64,000 bases of DNA from positions 124,001 to 188,000 of the forward strand of contig JAJPYN010000019.1 in NCBI GenBank assembly GCA_021204905.1. Reading direction: 5' to 3'. Positions 5,690-62,479 of the stretch are shown here, one piece after another (position 1 is the first letter of the stretch; each line of letters starts with the position of its first letter). A program made the position numbers and the translations under genes. The notes below the pieces were generated by a model, which did no database searches, was not told the DNA's origin, and saw nothing but the letters and a program-made list of their open reading frames with translations. This stretch comes from Prevotella sp. (GTDB lineage Bacteria; Bacteroidota; Bacteroidia; Bacteroidales; Bacteroidaceae).

Positions 5690-5790
5690 AAATGCCTTTT
5701 TATTACAAATGCTTTATTTTGCAAATGCTTTATTTTACAAATGCTTTATCTCGCAAATGCCTTATCTCACAAATGCCGGTTTATTTCACA
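5690..5790. repeat. Degenerate ~16-17 bp tandem repeat (CAAATGCTTTATTTTG-type) at the 3' end of the 5781..7487 gene
   Basis: Plus strand: gcaaatgccttttta / ttacaaatgctttatttt / gcaaatgctttatttt / acaaatgctttatctc / gcaaatgccttatctc / acaaatgccggtttatttcacaag; about 6 units. Confidence 0.9.
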
Positions 5791-15730: not shown

Positions 15731-16069
15731 ATGGCATGTTTCGACAACATCTGGAATGTCCTCGGCAGGTACAAGCACCTCATCATCATCGTGGTGGGAC
15801 TGCTCTTCGTCGGCGTGCTGAGCGACACGAGCCTGCGCGCGCTGATGAAGCTCGACGCCGAGAAGCGCAACCTGCAAGCGGAGGTCAATTACTACATTGT
15901 CAAGCGGCAAGAGGCCGAGCGGCAGTTGAACGCCTTGCAAAGCAGTCGCGAGGCGGTGGAGAAGGTGGCCCGCGAGCGCTATTTCATGAAGTACGACGAC
16001 GAGGACGTGTTCGTGCTGAGCAGCGAGCTGGACAACGGTCAGGAAGAAGGTTTTTCGTATGCAAAATAA
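15731..16069 (+). CDS. FtsB/DivIC-type septum formation protein
   Basis: MACFDNIWNVLGRYKHLIIIVVGLLFVGVLSDTS... single TM plus coiled coil, EKVARERYFMKYDDEDVFVL; start chosen downstream of the -7 element. Confidence 0.85.
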   Translation: MACFDNIWNVLGRYKHLIIIVVGLLFVGVLSDTSLRALMKLDAEKRNLQAEVNYYIVKRQEAERQLNALQSSREAVEKVARERYFMKYDDEDVFVLSSELDNGQEEGFSYAK

Positions 16070-16188
16070 GTTACGTCGTTCGTACAAAGCAAAGTAAATT
16101 GCATCGTTCGTACAAAGCAAAACAAACTACATCTTTCGTACTAAGCAAGATAAAAAATCGTCGTTCGTATGGAGCAAAATGATATTCG
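16051..16188. repeat. ~28 bp tandem repeat, five copies, joining the divIC stop to the next gene's start
   Basis: TTTTTCGTATGCAAAATAAGTTACG / TCGTTCGTACAAAGCAAAGTAAATTGCA / TCGTTCGTACAAAGCAAAACAAACTACA / TCTTTCGTACTAAGCAAGATAAAAAATCG / TCGTTCGTATGGAGCAAAATGATATTCG. Confidence 0.95.
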
Positions 16189-27576: not shown

Positions 27577-27636
27577 TCGGAAGATTTTTTGTTTGGGGTC
27601 CGGGCCGGCTGCCTTTTGCGCGAGCGGAGTTTGCGA

Positions 27637-27720
27637 TTAAAAAAAGTTTATCTTAGTTGCTACTGTAATCCGACTCAATTGTGCGGCACGAGCGCAGCCT
27701 TGGTTGTCGCCTGCGTTTAA
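27637..27720. repeat. Copy of the dispersed TTAGTTGCTACT element
   Basis: AAAAAAAGTTTATCTTAGTTGCTACTGTAATCCGACTCAATTGTGCGGCACGAGCGCAGCCTTGGTTGTC, near-identical to 53471-53542. Confidence 0.93.
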
Positions 27721-27743
27721 AATTTCGTCGGTTTCTTTTGGCA

Positions 27744-50652: not shown

Positions 50653-50804
50653 AGATTTTATTGATTTTGTTATTTGTTAATACTTACCGAGCTGCGAATT
50701 TATCTGTTTTCGGGCAATTATCAAAGAAAAGCGGCGAAAAAGGCTGCTCACCCGCGGGGAATAACTATTTTTGCGCGGCGGTTAAAACCCTCAAAACCCT
50801 TCTC

Positions 50805-51908
50805 GTGGCAGGCCTCTACGCACATATCCCGTTTTGCACCTCGCGCTGCATCTATTGCGCCTTCTGCTCGTCGACAAAGCTTAATCTGCGCAAAAAATAT
50901 GTCGATGCGCTGCTGAAAGAATATGCCTTGCGGAAAAGCTATCTCGGCGGCGAAAAAATCGAAACCATCTACCTCGGCGGAGGCACGCCAAGCGTACTAA
51001 ACACAAGCGATCTGGCGCGTTTGCTCGATGCTTTTTCAAAGGATGCCGATGCCGAAGAAATCACCGTCGAATGCAACCCCGACGACATCTCGCGCAATTT
51101 TGCGAAAGAGCTTGCGGCAATGGGCGTGAACCGCGTGTCGACGGGCATTCAGACATTCTCGCCCGAGCGGTTGCGCTTCCTTCGCCGGCGGCACACGGCG
51201 GAACAAGCAATTGCCGCGGTCGGCTTTTTGCGCGAAGCAGGCATTGAAAATATCAGTATCGACTTGATGTTCGGCTTCCCCGGACAGACTGTTAACGAAT
51301 GGCTGTGCGATGTGAAAAAGGCTGTCGAACTCGCGCCCGAACATATCTCCGCCTATTGCCTGTCCATCGAACCCGGCACGCCCTTGCACGCGATGTTAGT
51401 TCGCGGCGAATTAAACGAAGCAGACGATGAATCTTGCCGCGAGATGTACTATTTGCTTAGCGACATAGTAGCAACTAAGACCTTCGAACACTACGAAATC
51501 AGTAACTTCTGCCGGCCGGGCTTCCGCGCCAAGCACAACAGCGGTTACTGGCACGGCGCGCGCTACCTCGGGCTCGGCGCTGCGGCACATTCCTACGACG
51601 GCCGCTCGCGCCAATGGAACACGAGCAACATTGAGGCTTACATCGACAGCATCGAGCGCGGACTATTGCCTTTCGAGCGCGAAGTATTATCCGCCGACGA
51701 GCGTTATAACGATCTGATTACCACCGCTTTACGCACCTCCGACGGCATCGCCCTCGACAATGATTTTTACGGCCGGGATTACCTCCTTTCGCAAGCCCGA
51801 CCATTGCTTGCCCGCGGCCTGCTCGAAGTAATCGACAATCGATTGCGCCTGACGCGCGAAGCCCTCTTCACTTCCGACAGCGTCCTCGCCGAACTGGTTA
51901 AGGTGTGA
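50805..51908 (+). CDS. hemW: Radical SAM protein HemW (coproporphyrinogen III oxidase-like)
   Basis: GLYAHIPFCTSRCIYCAFCS; YLGGGTPSVL; HYEISNFCRPGF; GTG start inferred after TATTTTTG (50766-50773). Confidence 0.92.
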   Translation: MAGLYAHIPFCTSRCIYCAFCSSTKLNLRKKYVDALLKEYALRKSYLGGEKIETIYLGGGTPSVLNTSDLARLLDAFSKDADAEEITVECNPDDISRNFAKELAAMGVNRVSTGIQTFSPERLRFLRRRHTAEQAIAAVGFLREAGIENISIDLMFGFPGQTVNEWLCDVKKAVELAPEHISAYCLSIEPGTPLHAMLVRGELNEADDESCREMYYLLSDIVATKTFEHYEISNFCRPGFRAKHNSGYWHGARYLGLGAAAHSYDGRSRQWNTSNIEAYIDSIERGLLPFEREVLSADERYNDLITTALRTSDGIALDNDFYGRDYLLSQARPLLARGLLEVIDNRLRLTREALFTSDSVLAELVKV

Positions 51909-53441: not shown

Positions 53442-53470
53442 ACACATTGAACCGACTTTCGCGAAGAAAG

Positions 53471-53545
53471 AAGAAAAAAGTTTATCTTAGTTGCTACTGT
53501 AATGCGGCTCAGTTGTGCGGCGAGAGTATCAGCCTTAGTTGTCCG
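53471..53545. repeat. Copy of the dispersed TTAGTTGCTACT element
   Basis: AAGAAAAAAGTTTATCTTAGTTGCTACTGTAATGCGGCTCAGTTGTGCGGCGAGAGTATCAGCCTTAGTTGTCCGG. Confidence 0.93.
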
Positions 53546-53635
53546 GTTCGTTTCAACTTCATTCGGTTCGTTTCAACTTCATTTCAATTTCATTTCAACT
53601 TCAATTCAACTTCATTTCAACTTCAATTCATTTTT
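53542..53635. repeat. Simple tandem array of GTTCGTTTCAACTTCA / TTTCAACTTCAA units
   Basis: CGGTTCGTTTCAACTTCATT CGGTTCGTTTCAACTTCATTTCAATTTCATTTCAACTTCAATTCAACTTCATTTCAACTTCAATTC. Confidence 0.93.
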
Positions 53636-53742: not shown

Positions 53743-54546
53743 ATGTTCTCTTTCATCTCTTTCGGCAGCGGCAGCAGCGGCAATTGCTACTACCTTTTCA
53801 ACGAGCAGGGCGGGCTGTTCATCGACGCGGGCATGAGCCTCAAAGCTGTCAAGAAGCATTCCGCGGCGGCGAACATCAACCTCTCTGCGGCGCGGTTTAT
53901 CCTTGTTACTCACGACCACGCCGACCACGTGAAATATGTCGGTCAGCTGAGCAATGTGTTCGGGCTGCCGGTGTACGCCACGCCGACTGTTCACGAGCAC
54001 ATCGACAAGAACTATGTGGTGAAGCAAAAGGTGGACCGTCAGCGGCGGATGAACATCACTACGGGCGAGCCTTTCGAGTTGCTCGGCATGCGCATTAACA
54101 CCGTCATCGTGCCGCACGACAGCAGCGAGAATATCGGCTATAAGATTGAATATGAGGGCGTTACGTTTGTCCTTCTCACCGACATCGGGCATGTTACGCC
54201 GGAGATGGAGAGGCTCATCGGCGAGGCTAATTATCTCGTCATCGAGGCCAATCACGAGGTGGAGAAGCTCAAGCAAGGGCGCTATCCCGAGATGCTCAAA
54301 CGGCGCATCCTCTCCGATGTGGGCCACCTGAGCAACCACGACTGCGGGCAGACCATCGCGCGGTGCGGTACGCCGAAGTTGAAGCACGTGTGGCTGTGCC
54401 ATCTGAGTTACGACAACAACGACCCGGAGCTGGCGCGCTACACCGTTGAGGGCGTGCTGCGCGAATACGGCATTGCGCCGGGCAAGGACTTCGTACTCGA
54501 CATTCTCAAACGCCGTTCGCCCAGCGCGGTTACGCTGATGGATTAG
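53743..54546 (+). CDS. MBL-fold metallo-hydrolase (YycJ/WalJ-like)
   Basis: SFISFGSGSSGNCYYLFNEQGGLFIDAGMS; VTHDHADHVKYV; CHLSYDNND. Confidence 0.93.
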   Translation: MFSFISFGSGSSGNCYYLFNEQGGLFIDAGMSLKAVKKHSAAANINLSAARFILVTHDHADHVKYVGQLSNVFGLPVYATPTVHEHIDKNYVVKQKVDRQRRMNITTGEPFELLGMRINTVIVPHDSSENIGYKIEYEGVTFVLLTDIGHVTPEMERLIGEANYLVIEANHEVEKLKQGRYPEMLKRRILSDVGHLSNHDCGQTIARCGTPKLKHVWLCHLSYDNNDPELARYTVEGVLREYGIAPGKDFVLDILKRRSPSAVTLMD

Positions 54547-54570
54547 TAGCTACTAAGATAAACTTTTTTC
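54543..54570. repeat. Short copy of the dispersed element overlapping a stop codon
   Basis: TTAGTAGCTACTAA (14-nt perfect palindrome) followed by GATAAACTTTTTTC. Confidence 0.85.
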
Positions 54571-54592
54571 GAAAAAACACTCGGCGACTACG

Positions 54593-55972: not shown

Positions 55973-56040
55973 GAGGCCGGCAGCCCGGGGCAATTGACAA
56001 CTATGGGACTAACAAAAACGAGCCACACCGGAGAATTTGG

Positions 56041-56195
56041 TATGGTTCGTTTCGTTTCAATTCGATTCGTTTCGTTTCAATTCGATTCGTTTCGATTAAC
56101 CTTTCGTTTCAATTCGATTAACGTTTCGTTTCGGTTAAACTTTCGTTTCAATTCGATTAACGTTTCGTTTCGGTTAACCTTTCGTTTAAATTCCT
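56041..56195. repeat. Tandem array of GTTTCGTTTCAATTCGATT units with a 39-bp higher-order period
   Basis: CTTTCGTTTCAATTCGATTAACGTTTCGTTTCGGTTAA[A/C] at 56101-56139 and 56140-56178; shorter GTTTCGTTTCAATTCGATTC units upstream. Confidence 0.95.
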
Positions 56196-56207: not shown

Positions 56208-56281
56208 TAGCGCGGGGGGGCCACGATCCCTCGACCTCCGGATTATGAATCCGACGCTCTAACCAGCTGAGCTACCGCGCC
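56208..56281 (-). tRNA. tRNA-Met (CAT)
   Basis: Reverse strand: GGCGCGGTAGCTCAGCTGGTTAGAGCGTCGGATTCATAATCCGGAGGTCGAGGGATCGTGGCCCCCCCGCGCTA; anticodon CAT; unusual T-arm. Confidence 0.9.
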
Positions 56282-58831: not shown

Positions 58832-61381
58832 ATGATTTATCCTGCTGACTTTGAGGCGAAAATTGGCTTCTCGCGAATACGTGCGATGCTGCGTGAGGCG
58901 TGTATGTCGACACTGGGCGAGGAGAAAGTCGACAGCATGCAGATGATGTACTCTACGGCTGAGATACGCGAAAAGTTGGTGAGAGTGAGCGAGTTGCGCC
59001 TATTGCTGGCGGAGCGTGAGGATTTCCCGCTGACATATTACTTCGACATGCGGCAGAGCGTGAGCCGTCTGCGAATAGAGAACACGCATCTCGACGAGAG
59101 GGAACTGTTCGACTTACGCCGCTCCCTAGACACCATCCACACAATAAAGACAATCCTCGTGCCGGCGGAGTTCCGCTTGGGCGATGAGGTGAAATATCCT
59201 CATTTGCAGATACTTGCCGAGGAGGTGAGCAGCTTTCCCGAGATAGTAAGACGCATTGACGGCATACTCGACAAATACGGACGGCTGCGCGACACGGCAT
59301 CTCCCGAACTGCAAAGGATACGCCGCGAACTGAAACAAGCGGAGGGCAGCGTCTCGCGAACATTATATAATATATTGCGTCAGGCACAGCAAGACGGACT
59401 TGTCGACAAGGATGCCGCACCGACATTGCGCGACGGCAGACTGGTGATACCCGTCTCGCCGGCAATGAAACGCCGCATACCCGGCATAGTCCACGACGAG
59501 AGCGCTACGGGAAAGACGGCATACGTAGAGCCGACAGAGGTGGTGGAGGCGAACAATAAGCTGCGGGCATTGGAGGCGGAAGAGAAGAAAGAAACGGTCA
59601 GAATACTCACCGAATTTGCCAAAGTGCTGCGCCCCGACGCACGTTATATCGCGGCATCATACGACCTGTTGGCACACATCGATTTCCTCAGAGCCAAGCT
59701 GATAGTGGCGGAAAAATACGGCGGGATAGAGCCGGAAGTGGCGGACCGACCGCTAATAGACTGGGTGGAGGCGCGTCATCCCCTCTTGCAGGAGACGCTC
59801 GAGAAAGCGGGAAGGAAGATTGTACCGCTCGATATAAGCCTTAGCGAAGAGGGCAGAATACTCGTCATATCGGGACCTAACGCGGGCGGCAAGTCGGTGT
59901 GCCTCGAGACGGCGGGACTGTTGCAGTATATGCTCCAATGCGGTTTGCCCGTACCGATAAAGGATAACTCCCGTTGCGGCGTATTCTCCGACATAATGCT
60001 CGACATAGGCGACGAGCAGAGCATAGAGAACGACCTGTCCACCTACTCCTCACATCTGCGCAATATGAACCGTATGATGCGCAGCGCGTCGCCGAAGTCG
60101 CTGATGCTGATAGACGAGTTCGGCGCGGGCACGGAGCCGCAGATTGGCGGGGCGATAGCCGAGGCGATACTCACCCGGCTGTGGGAGAAAGGCACGTTCG
60201 CCGTCATCACAACCCACTATCAGAACCTGAAACATTTCGCCGACAATCACGAGGCAGTGGTCAACGGCGCAATGCTCTACGACCGCAATCGTATGCAGGC
60301 GCTGTTCCAACTGCAAATCGGGCGGCCCGGCTCGTCGTTTGCAATAGAGATAGCAAGGCAGACGGGTGTGCCCGAAGACGTGATACAGATGGCGGCGGAC
60401 ATAGTGGGACAAGACTATATCCAGGCGGATAAATACCTCCAAGACATCGTGCGCGACAAGCGTTATTGGGAAGCCAAGCGGCAGACAATCCACCAAAGGG
60501 AGAAGGATATGCAGCGCGCCATCGACCGCTACGAGACATCCCTCGCCGACATAGAGCGGCAGAGGAAAGACATTCTCCGGCGGGCAAAGGAGCAGGCGGA
60601 GGAGATTCTGCAAGAGAGCAACCGCCGCATAGAGAACACCATCCGCGAGATACGCGAGCAACAGGCGGAGAAAGAAGCCGTAAAGAAGATGCGCGAGGAG
60701 CTTGATACCTTCCGGCAGGAGGTGCAGGATATTGATACGAAATCCGCAGATGATGCCATTCAGAAGAAGATAGAGCAGATTACGGCGCGGCGGGAGCGGC
60801 AAAAGAAGCGCAAGGCGGAGCGGCAAAAGACAGCGGCGGACAGCACCAAACAGCAGCCCGAACAGCCGTCCGCAACCGAGATGCAGATAGTTTCGGGCGA
60901 CAGCGTGAGGATGAGAGGGCACGAGAGTGTCGGTACGGTGGAGAAGACCGACGGCAAAACGGCAACGGTCATCTTCGGGGAAATGCGGACGAAAGTGCCA
61001 GTCCGGCGGTTGGAGAAAGCCGATAACGCCGCCGGCAACGTATGCAAGCCCGACACGGCGGGAACCAAGCACACCGACCTGAACACGATAAGCGTCTCAC
61101 ATGCCACACGCGCCACGATAGACGAGCACCGCAAGGCATTCCGGCAAGAGATTGACGTGCGCGGCATGCGGGGCGACGAAGCGATGAACGCCGTGATGTA
61201 TTTCATCGATGACGCCATCCTCGCGGGCGTCAGTCAGGTACGTATCCTGCACGGCAAGGGCGACGGCATACTCCGCCAGATTATCCGCGACTACCTCGCC
61301 ACCGTGCCCGGCATAACCTCCTTCCGCGACGAGCATGTCCAGTTCGGCGGCGCAGGCATCACCGTCGTTGATTTTGAATGA
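58832..61381 (+). CDS. mutS2: Endonuclease MutS2
   Basis: VISGPNAGGKSVCLETAGLLQYM; LMLIDEFGAGTEPQIGGAIAEAIL; C-terminal Smr domain (VDVRGMRGDEAMNAV...VRILHGKGDGILR, read as IDVRGMRGDEA). Confidence 0.96.
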   Translation: MIYPADFEAKIGFSRIRAMLREACMSTLGEEKVDSMQMMYSTAEIREKLVRVSELRLLLAEREDFPLTYYFDMRQSVSRLRIENTHLDERELFDLRRSLDTIHTIKTILVPAEFRLGDEVKYPHLQILAEEVSSFPEIVRRIDGILDKYGRLRDTASPELQRIRRELKQAEGSVSRTLYNILRQAQQDGLVDKDAAPTLRDGRLVIPVSPAMKRRIPGIVHDESATGKTAYVEPTEVVEANNKLRALEAEEKKETVRILTEFAKVLRPDARYIAASYDLLAHIDFLRAKLIVAEKYGGIEPEVADRPLIDWVEARHPLLQETLEKAGRKIVPLDISLSEEGRILVISGPNAGGKSVCLETAGLLQYMLQCGLPVPIKDNSRCGVFSDIMLDIGDEQSIENDLSTYSSHLRNMNRMMRSASPKSLMLIDEFGAGTEPQIGGAIAEAILTRLWEKGTFAVITTHYQNLKHFADNHEAVVNGAMLYDRNRMQALFQLQIGRPGSSFAIEIARQTGVPEDVIQMAADIVGQDYIQADKYLQDIVRDKRYWEAKRQTIHQREKDMQRAIDRYETSLADIERQRKDILRRAKEQAEEILQESNRRIENTIREIREQQAEKEAVKKMREELDTFRQEVQDIDTKSADDAIQKKIEQITARRERQKKRKAERQKTAADSTKQQPEQPSATEMQIVSGDSVRMRGHESVGTVEKTDGKTATVIFGEMRTKVPVRRLEKADNAAGNVCKPDTAGTKHTDLNTISVSHATRATIDEHRKAFRQEIDVRGMRGDEAMNAVMYFIDDAILAGVSQVRILHGKGDGILRQIIRDYLATVPGITSFRDEHVQFGGAGITVVDFE

Positions 61382-61439
61382 ACCTTGAAAATTATTTAGT
61401 ACCCGAAACCAATCCGCACTGAAACCCTGACCCCGCTGC

Positions 61440-61510
61440 GTCGGGTTATAGTAGCTAATCGCGAAGCGCTGTCGAAGTGCAACGGAGAGAGAACTAAGAT
61501 AAACTTGCTT
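61440..61510. repeat. Diverged copy of the dispersed element with GCGAAGCGC hairpin-like core
   Basis: ATAGTAGCTAATCGCGAAGCGCTGTCGAAGTGCAACGGAGAGAGAACTAAGATAAACTTG. Confidence 0.75.
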
Positions 61511-61534
61511 CCGAAATTAATTCGCTCCTGAAAA

Positions 61535-62479
61535 TTATTTCACCAGCCGCAACCACTTCTTGCAATCGAACTTCGCCTCGGCGCGCCGCTCCACGTCTTT
61601 CGGGAGCTTTGAGAAGAAGTTGATGCCCGTGCGCGCCTCAACGCTGTCCACCGTTACGGCATAGCTCGCGACGGGCCGGTTGCTCTCGTCGTTGTTCATT
61701 ATGAAGCCAATCGCTTCGGCGCTATTGTCGCCCGTCCACCGCAGGACGACCTTAAAAAACTGCTTCGGCACCATCACCTTGTTTTTGCCGATGGTCTTGT
61801 AGGTCTCGCCCTTCTCGATGATCGGGCCGCAAACGATGTAGATGCTGTCGTACGCCACCGCCCACTTGCGGCACAGCGTCTCGAGCTCTTCCCAGTCGCC
61901 GGCGTTGAGCGTGTGGGTCTGCGGGCACATATTGCTGAAGAGGAAGCACTGGTTCATCGCCTCGCGCGAGTACTTGCAGTCGGCCGAAGGGCATTGGTGG
62001 CCGCGGTCGTAGCCGGAGCCGCGGTAGTCGCTGTCGAGCGCGATGGGCCCTTTCTTTATTGAGAAGTCAGGCTGGAAATCATTGGCACGTTTCTCCGTAC
62101 CTTGCGTCCGCTCTTTCGTGAGCACCCACGCCACCCAGTTGGGCACGCGCCGCTGCTTGTTGTACGACAGGGTGAAGCCTTCGTGAATGACAATCTCCTC
62201 GTCGCGGTCGGTGAGGTATGCGGGGATCTCGAGCCCTTTGGCTCGCACCTGCCCTCGCGAAGTTTTTTCCGGCTTTATCTTAATTGCTACTGCAGTCCCT
62301 TCGCCGCCCTGCGCCGCGCCATCCTCAGTTGTAAGTGTTCGGTTCGTTTCAACATTAGTCGAATTCGTTTCAACCTTAGCCTCTTCCTTACGGCTGTTGG
62401 CATACGACATGGCGACGGCAATGATGATTATCACAATCCAAAGGACTGCCTTGCCGCGCGGCGTGTTCTTCTTTTTCAT
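61535..62479 (-). CDS. DNA/RNA non-specific endonuclease, membrane-anchored or secreted
   Basis: N-terminal TM VLWIVIIIIAVAMSYA; YDRGHQCPSADCKYSREAMNQCFLFSNMCPQTHTLNAGDWEELE (DRGH motif). Confidence 0.94.
   Translation of the reverse strand: MKKKNTPRGKAVLWIVIIIIAVAMSYANSRKEEAKVETNSTNVETNRTLTTEDGAAQGGEGTAVAIKIKPEKTSRGQVRAKGLEIPAYLTDRDEEIVIHEGFTLSYNKQRRVPNWVAWVLTKERTQGTEKRANDFQPDFSIKKGPIALDSDYRGSGYDRGHQCPSADCKYSREAMNQCFLFSNMCPQTHTLNAGDWEELETLCRKWAVAYDSIYIVCGPIIEKGETYKTIGKNKVMVPKQFFKVVLRWTGDNSAEAIGFIMNNDESNRPVASYAVTVDSVEARTGINFFSKLPKDVERRAEAKFDCKKWLRLVK
62266..62376. repeat. Copy of the dispersed element plus GTTCGTTTCAAC repeats inside the endonuclease CDS
   Basis: GGCTTTATCTTAATTGCTACTGCAGTCCC...CTCAGTTGTAAGTGTTCGGTTCGTTTCAACATTAGTCGAATTCGTTTCAACCTTAG. 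Confidence 0.85.

Follow-up and report, generated by a model that had tools for sequence, protein, structure and literature searches.

A ~105-bp multi-box sequence at about 150 places in one Prevotella genome, possibly a recognition signal that evolved in place

Does the short sequence at positions 53471-53545 of this 64,000-nt stretch of Prevotella sp. DNA (the whole stretch is called the window hereafter) belong to a mobile repeat, or does it represent something else? The first-pass annotation had noted a near-identical copy elsewhere in the window. It proposed a possible undescribed, dispersed family, the two copies being near-identical over ~65 nt, and inferred a 'REP/MITE-like non-autonomous element'. 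We analysed the family in the window, in the genome of origin and in other genomes.

A dispersed family in the genome of origin

The two copies at 27.6 and 53.5 kb are real, with 91% identity across 53 nt between window positions 27640-27692 and 53474-53526. Searching the window for the 19-mer core with at most three mismatches yielded four matches, against 0.01 expected from shuffles. In the genome of origin (G000; 1.96 Mb, 19 contigs), an 18-mer core with at most two mismatches gave 92 matches and its reversed control gave 0, while BLAST with a 96-nt unit returned ~40 copies, many of them full-length at 74-84% identity. Stretches around the core matches, ~490 kb in total, were taken, and 108 copies were aligned. 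A sequence-only profile of 109 positions, called R1, was built from 47 copies. It has 153 matches in the genome at E<=1, about 150 of which are below 0.02, i.e. one site per 13 kb. All seven sites of the window listed in the first-pass annotation were recovered with this profile. The dispersed family is thus a real one, undescribed and restricted to this lineage, and its copies beyond the window greatly exceed 10.

Anatomy of the sequence

The core GTTTATCTTAGTTGCTACT is part of a ~105-nt multi-box sequence, conserved from a GCGAGCGGAGTTTG box ~30 nt 5' of the core to GTTTCAA ~60 nt 3' of it. The element is therefore longer than the ~65 nt first noted. In 5' to 3' order, the boxes are GCGAGCGGAGTTTG, an A-rich run, the core TTATCTTAGT(T/C)GCTACT, RTAATCCCGGCTCA, TGCG, CAGCCTTAGTTG and a 3' box that reads TCGGGTACGTTTCAA or variants thereof. 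They keep a fixed spacing: the 3' box is present with 103 of 116 cores, and nearly all of these boxes end 57-62 nt past the core. The repeats of GTTCGTTTCAA type described earlier as linked to some copies are indeed present; however, they are not a separate type of repeat, they are the 3' box of the same motif. The information content of the whole sequence is ~77-83 bits, of which the core contributes 28.6 and the 3' box 17.3, where ~15 bits would suffice for locating 150 sites. At some sites the 3' box is iterated in tandem, and some cores or 3' boxes are repeated at periods of 11-22 nt. Tandem core arrays with 22-nt and 19-nt periods were observed at C7:4902-5006 and C7:about 59850-59990 of the genome. 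The sites of the window are collected in Table 1.

Table 1. Sites of the multi-box sequence in the window
Positions	Strand	Description	R1 match or other basis
53446..53558	+	Full site (starting copy)	74.4 bits at 53470-53558
53446..53558, parts	+	A-run 53474-53479; core GTTTATCTTAGTTGCTACT 53480-53498	Sequence
53446..53558, 3' side	+	Linker with GTGCGG, CAGCCTTAGTTG, 3' box TCCGGTTCGTTTCAA; tandem 3'-box iterations to about 53640	
27619..27722	+	Full site: GCGAGCGGAGTTTG box, A-run, core, linker, 3' box TCGCCTGCGTTTAAA	77.8 bits
24522..24620	-	Alternative pre-core word AGGTC, 3' box TCCGGTTCGTTTCAA; intergenic, after a gene with a TRCF domain (mfd-like; Pfam)	37.3 bits
51411..51482	-	Inside hemW (50661-51908)	28 bits and orthologue alignment
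54492..54583	-	Over the C-terminus and stop codon of an MBL-fold gene (53743-54546)	32.8 bits
61392..61532	-	Interrupted core (TTAGTT^..GCTACT), 34-nt insert CTCTCTCCGTTGCACTTCGACAGCGCTTCGCGAT; 3' box variant TCGGGTACTAAATAA at 61392-61406	61433-61527, weak because the core is interrupted
62269..62354	+	Inside a DNA/RNA non-specific endonuclease gene (61535-62479, -), in the N-terminal low-complexity segment; antisense frame VETNRTLTTEDGAAQGGEGTAVAIKIK, outside the Pfam domain (aa 85-294)	49.8 bits
55988..56054	+	Probable site: alternative core GGGCAATTGACAACTATG, 3' box TATGGTTCGTTTCG	Weak, 56037-56061

The last site of the table is followed by a dense array of GTTTCAA/TTCGATTAACG, which extends to about 56200 and ends at a tRNA gene (56208-56281, -).

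We also looked for structure in the sequence. No consensus secondary structure emerged, RNAalifold giving four uninformative pairs. Folding z-scores are flat along the element, with no 40-nt window folding better than dinucleotide shuffles, and an Rfam search of the window returned tRNAs only. A structured RNA element or hairpin was thus rejected, given the lack of covarying pairs, Rfam match or fold. A coding triplet phase of the words was looked for and is absent.

Sites in conserved genes

Four sites lie in genes coding for conserved proteins, namely HemW, CysK, the MBL-fold protein and an intact alpha-2-macroglobulin (A2M), which were compared with 29, 15, 20 and 23 same-genus orthologues, respectively. 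None of them has extra length at the boxes, the comparison being limited for A2M by a variable loop that precedes the 3' box. In all four, the boxes replace conserved codons at a fixed spacing of ~58 nt. Where the relatives of HemW read ..LTAAGYEHYEISNFA, the protein of this species reads ..IVATKTFEHYEISNFC, with no change in length (in a fuller view, LIDKLTAAGYEHYEISNFA in same-genus orthologues versus LLSDIVATKTFEHYEISNFC in this species), and the 3' box lies at the right distance, where it encodes LNEADDESC. In CysK, NPNVKIIAVEP has become NEKIVLVATEP and the near-invariant GPHKIQ has become GSHAIQ, with the native residues between them retained. The C-terminus of the MBL-fold protein aligns without indel, and A2M has FILVATVNTGYF in place of the FxLPxxGLTGxF of its relatives. 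Across the four proteins, mismatches affect 10 of the 21 columns inside boxes that are conserved in at least 80% of the orthologues, versus 84 of 513 such columns outside (p=0.001). In conserved genes, the boxes thus arose in place as codons were replaced, with no sequence inserted. The insertions that empty orthologous sites would reveal were not seen at these four coding sites, which show box substitutions instead of added length.

Shared descent and features of mobile elements

An old non-autonomous mobile element of the MITE or REP type, spread by insertion and since diverged, would account for dispersed, mostly intergenic copies of ~105 nt with a related full-length consensus, as well as for occasional pair duplications and palindromic double sites. 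We nevertheless regard such an origin as very improbable, as the four conserved proteins have no added length at the boxes and several other features argue against it. Terminal inverted repeats are absent from ordinary copies in the alignment of 108 copies, with only three palindromic double sites; there is no hairpin, and no transposase with matching ends was found. Furthermore, sites do not share non-consensus letters beyond chance (39,851 observed over all pairs versus 40,845 expected). They thus do not appear to be descended from one another, with the exception of a handful of pairs that are true duplicates, notably the palindromic double sites at 32 kb/43 kb of C9 and the pair C4:4804/38427. 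The variance of pairwise identity exceeds that of column shuffles, as a mobile element might also have it; this wider spread probably reflects how well individual sites match the consensus. The first-pass label of a REP/MITE-like element is therefore not sustained.

A RAYT-type transposase sharing the termini of the element had also been envisaged. The sole Y1_Tnp gene of the genome (Y1/RAYT superfamily), a 150-aa open frame at C17:99152-99493, has no copy of the sequence within 1.5 kb, and the link to RAYT proteins was rejected on that basis. Pairs of facing cores 1.8-2.4 kb apart look IS-like; this candidate was rejected because the genes that they flank are unrelated.

Like REP/BIME elements, the family is dispersed, lies mainly between genes and exceeds 100 copies, with inverted pairs among them (PMC2817692). 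In contrast with REP/BIME and RAYT systems, it lacks the GTAG/GTGG-headed folding palindrome that is the hallmark of REPs, the hairpin and a RAYT gene flanked by copies, and it was acquired in place in genes. BrickBuilt of Porphyromonas is described as a transposable element that has inverted repeats and contains a minisatellite (PMC4596501). Bacteroidales MITEs such as this one resemble the present family in being dispersed repeats of the same broad bacterial group with tandem sub-repeats; however, our sequence shows none of the termini or insertion behaviour.

Alternative words and interrupted cores

Copies vary by alternative multi-letter words at fixed positions (TCGGGTACG, TCGCCTGCG, TTTGGTTCG); for instance, TCTTAG is preceded by TTA or AGG. 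Mutual information is strong only among adjacent columns and distant modules assort independently, no long-range covariation among the columns being found. At some sites, among them the one at 55988 in the window, a different core stands with the usual 3' box. In addition, four cores are broken by inserts, all at one position (TTAGTT/TTAGTTG ^ GCTACT), which gives the core centre the look of a site of insertion or recombination. The inserts are of two kinds. An identical insert of 34 nt is present in the window at 61433-61527 (-) and at C11:22382-22524 (C11:22463), and one of ~66-73 nt, also found elsewhere, interrupts the cores at C2:22275-22456 and C4:40680-40854. The copy at 61.4 kb, which had been called split, is thus genuine, and its appearance is explained by the 34-nt insert.

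The inserts, alternative cores and iterations suggest that tracts are replaced besides point mutation. They keep alive a model in which short modules from a genomic lexicon (19-22-nt cores, GTTTCAA boxes, alternative cores and small cassettes) are exchanged among loci by microhomology-mediated recombination, or by site-specific recombination at the core centre, so that the sites are mosaics. Words with purely local dependence, the shared interruption point with its two kinds of insert, alternative cores with the same 3' box and tandem core arrays would all fit such exchanges. However, the native codons retained between the boxes of CysK and A2M would require two tracts at exact spacing, and no recombinase was found; we thus consider this model improbable.

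A second small dispersed sequence, (TTGCCCGATAAATCGGTCATCATC)GGCTGCACTCGGCAAA...CTCTCG(T/C)TTGCACGATAATT, was observed both alone and inside cores of the family (C6:76943, C8:1818, C6:49438 and C10:17876).

Genomic context and match quality

The sites are mostly intergenic. They lie on both strands, and their spacing is near random with few sites less than 1 kb apart. Those between convergent genes amount to 41 of 86 intergenic sites versus 62 of 216 gaps, in a gene-context sample drawn from stretches around sites and hence biased toward them. The median R1 match is 63 bits for intergenic sites, 52 for sites in disordered coding segments and 31 for those in folded ones; intergenic sites differ from those in structured and other coding sequences with p=1e-4. 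Match quality thus drops with protein constraint. In unstructured coding segments, the antisense reading of the sequence produces VETNPTTKA..VATKIIPA-like peptides in unrelated proteins.

These data bear on a further possibility, that of a binding site for a chromosome-organising or regulatory protein of the Noc, MatS or KOPS class, maintained by direct selection at each locus without uptake of DNA. KOPS, MatS and Noc sites are dispersed, number tens to hundreds and arise in place both between and within genes, and the present sites resemble them in both dispersal and mode of evolution. A number of ~150 copies would fit such systems better than it fits uptake sequences. The occurrence of sites on both strands and their enrichment between convergent genes are also compatible with this role, and local letter dependence without long-range covariation could reflect the footprint of a multi-contact protein. 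In contrast, the known sites are short single boxes of 8-17 bp, as opposed to a long multi-box site with ~80 bits over 105 bp. Moreover, the density of sites differs only mildly among contigs (p=0.04) with no evident origin/terminus pattern, and no candidate for a protein reading the sequence was found. We rate this possibility as rather unlikely taken by itself, and nearly as plausible as an uptake signal.

Distribution in other genomes

With R1, three genomes of the same genus (1.2 Mb in total) gave no match below E=0.1, and 99 same-genus genomes searched with stricter filters gave none at E<=0.001. An exact 20-base core pattern searched in ~85,000 species representatives (GTDB) gave three isolated matches, none with a 3' box, which we took as chance rather than as real sites. 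When one mismatch was allowed, 15 of 397 other same-genus genomes had a 16-base match, and only two of the 15 had more than two such matches. The sequence is thus confined to one species among those searched. The genus is deep, with orthologues just 50-63% identical, so that absence from relatives does not by itself date the sequence. Viral contigs contain no match to the exact core pattern, and a phage origin was rejected on these grounds.

We also searched for genus-wide 'dialects' by k-mer over-representation in 400 kb from each of three relatives. No dominant dispersed signal was found in two of them (G016 and G010), and the third (G040) yielded a CRISPR array and a clustered word repeat. 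In 20 stretches sampled from the latter genome (L184-L203), the CRISPR-like repeat GTTTTAATCATACCTTTATGGAATTGAAAT has about 88 copies, and two stretches (L188 and L190) contain modular repeats, ATCTGCGAGAGAATA accompanied by CTGCG words, which are frequently paired in inverted orientation and clustered in a few regions. In contigs C1 of two other same-genus genomes, G121 and G210, TATCTTATTTGCTACT occurs six and four times on one strand, respectively; an example at L171 has a promoter-like location just upstream of an ORF, without a 3' box.

A possible recognition signal

We consider it about an even chance that the family is a species-specific, ~105-bp multi-box DNA recognition signal that evolved in place at about 150 places, and not a mobile repeat. 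In-place acquisition at fixed spacing, the independence of the sites, the gradient with protein constraint and the lack of structure all favour a sequence recognised in its double-stranded form. The restricted distribution and the near-random spacing of the sites on both strands also fit such a signal. The reader would be a dedicated protein or complex contacting several helical turns, and a directional pressure would pull many loci toward the same consensus. By analogy with the USS of Haemophilus and the DUS of Neisseria, this pressure would most likely be molecular drive from biased uptake of signal-bearing DNA; alternatively, it may be direct selection for a chromosome-organising binding site. 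The reading machine could thus serve DNA uptake, chromosome organisation or another function. The genome has comEC, which is weak support for uptake because most bacteria have this gene.

USS and DUS are ~10-30 bp long, with ~1,500-6,000 copies per genome, about one per kilobase. In contrast, the sequence described here has several boxes over ~105 bp with alternative multi-letter words. Its ~150 copies in 1.96 Mb, about ten times sparser, count against uptake, as do an information excess far above that expected for USS or DUS and the facts that no reader protein was found and that no genus-wide system of dialects is apparent. Simple drive does not explain the precise core inserts and replaced cores either. 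Length, low density, excess information and word structure therefore speak against a simple equation with USS or DUS.

There are nonetheless similarities. USS 'evolve by point mutations, i.e. they are not inserted elements' and are scarcer where coding sequence is constrained (PMC7811141). The substitutions at the four coding sites and the weaker, depleted matches in constrained coding sequence correspond to these properties. Acquisition by point mutation, occurrence on both strands and mostly outside constrained coding sequence, lineage-specific forms, and more information than locating the sites requires are all shared with USS and DUS (PMC7811141, PMC3630211). A more specific reading is possible, and we advance it tentatively: a composite ~105-bp signal of position-specific alternative words, substituted into ~150 loci where it overrides conserved enzyme residues, and read by an undescribed multi-contact DNA-binding machine.

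Two families of naturally competent Proteobacteria are known to have in-place signals that alter conserved enzyme residues. A recognition signal in Bacteroidota, if confirmed, would extend this phenomenon to a much longer form built of spaced alternative words; as a self-recognition signal, it would be the first of a long, multi-box kind and also the first in the phylum. In the open-access literature, we found no described uptake-type signal in Bacteroidota. Riemerella columbina, a member of this phylum, is reported to prefer its own DNA in uptake; the study detected nothing beyond A-rich k-mers, and no signal was established (PMC7965970). The sequence would also offer a concrete motif for a phylum in which self-preferring uptake has been reported without one. 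If its role were architectural instead, it would be an unusually information-rich site, usable to fish out its DNA-binding protein. It resembles a species 'watermark' more than a jumping element.

Other repeats in the window

Two short tandem repeats were observed elsewhere in the window, one with a 16-nt period at 5696-5775 (CTTTATTTTGCAAATG) and the other with a 28-nt period at 16061-16144 (GCAAAATAAGTTACGTCGTTCGTACAAA). Promoter-like TAnnTTTG sequences and gene content would be in keeping with a bacterium of the Bacteroidota.
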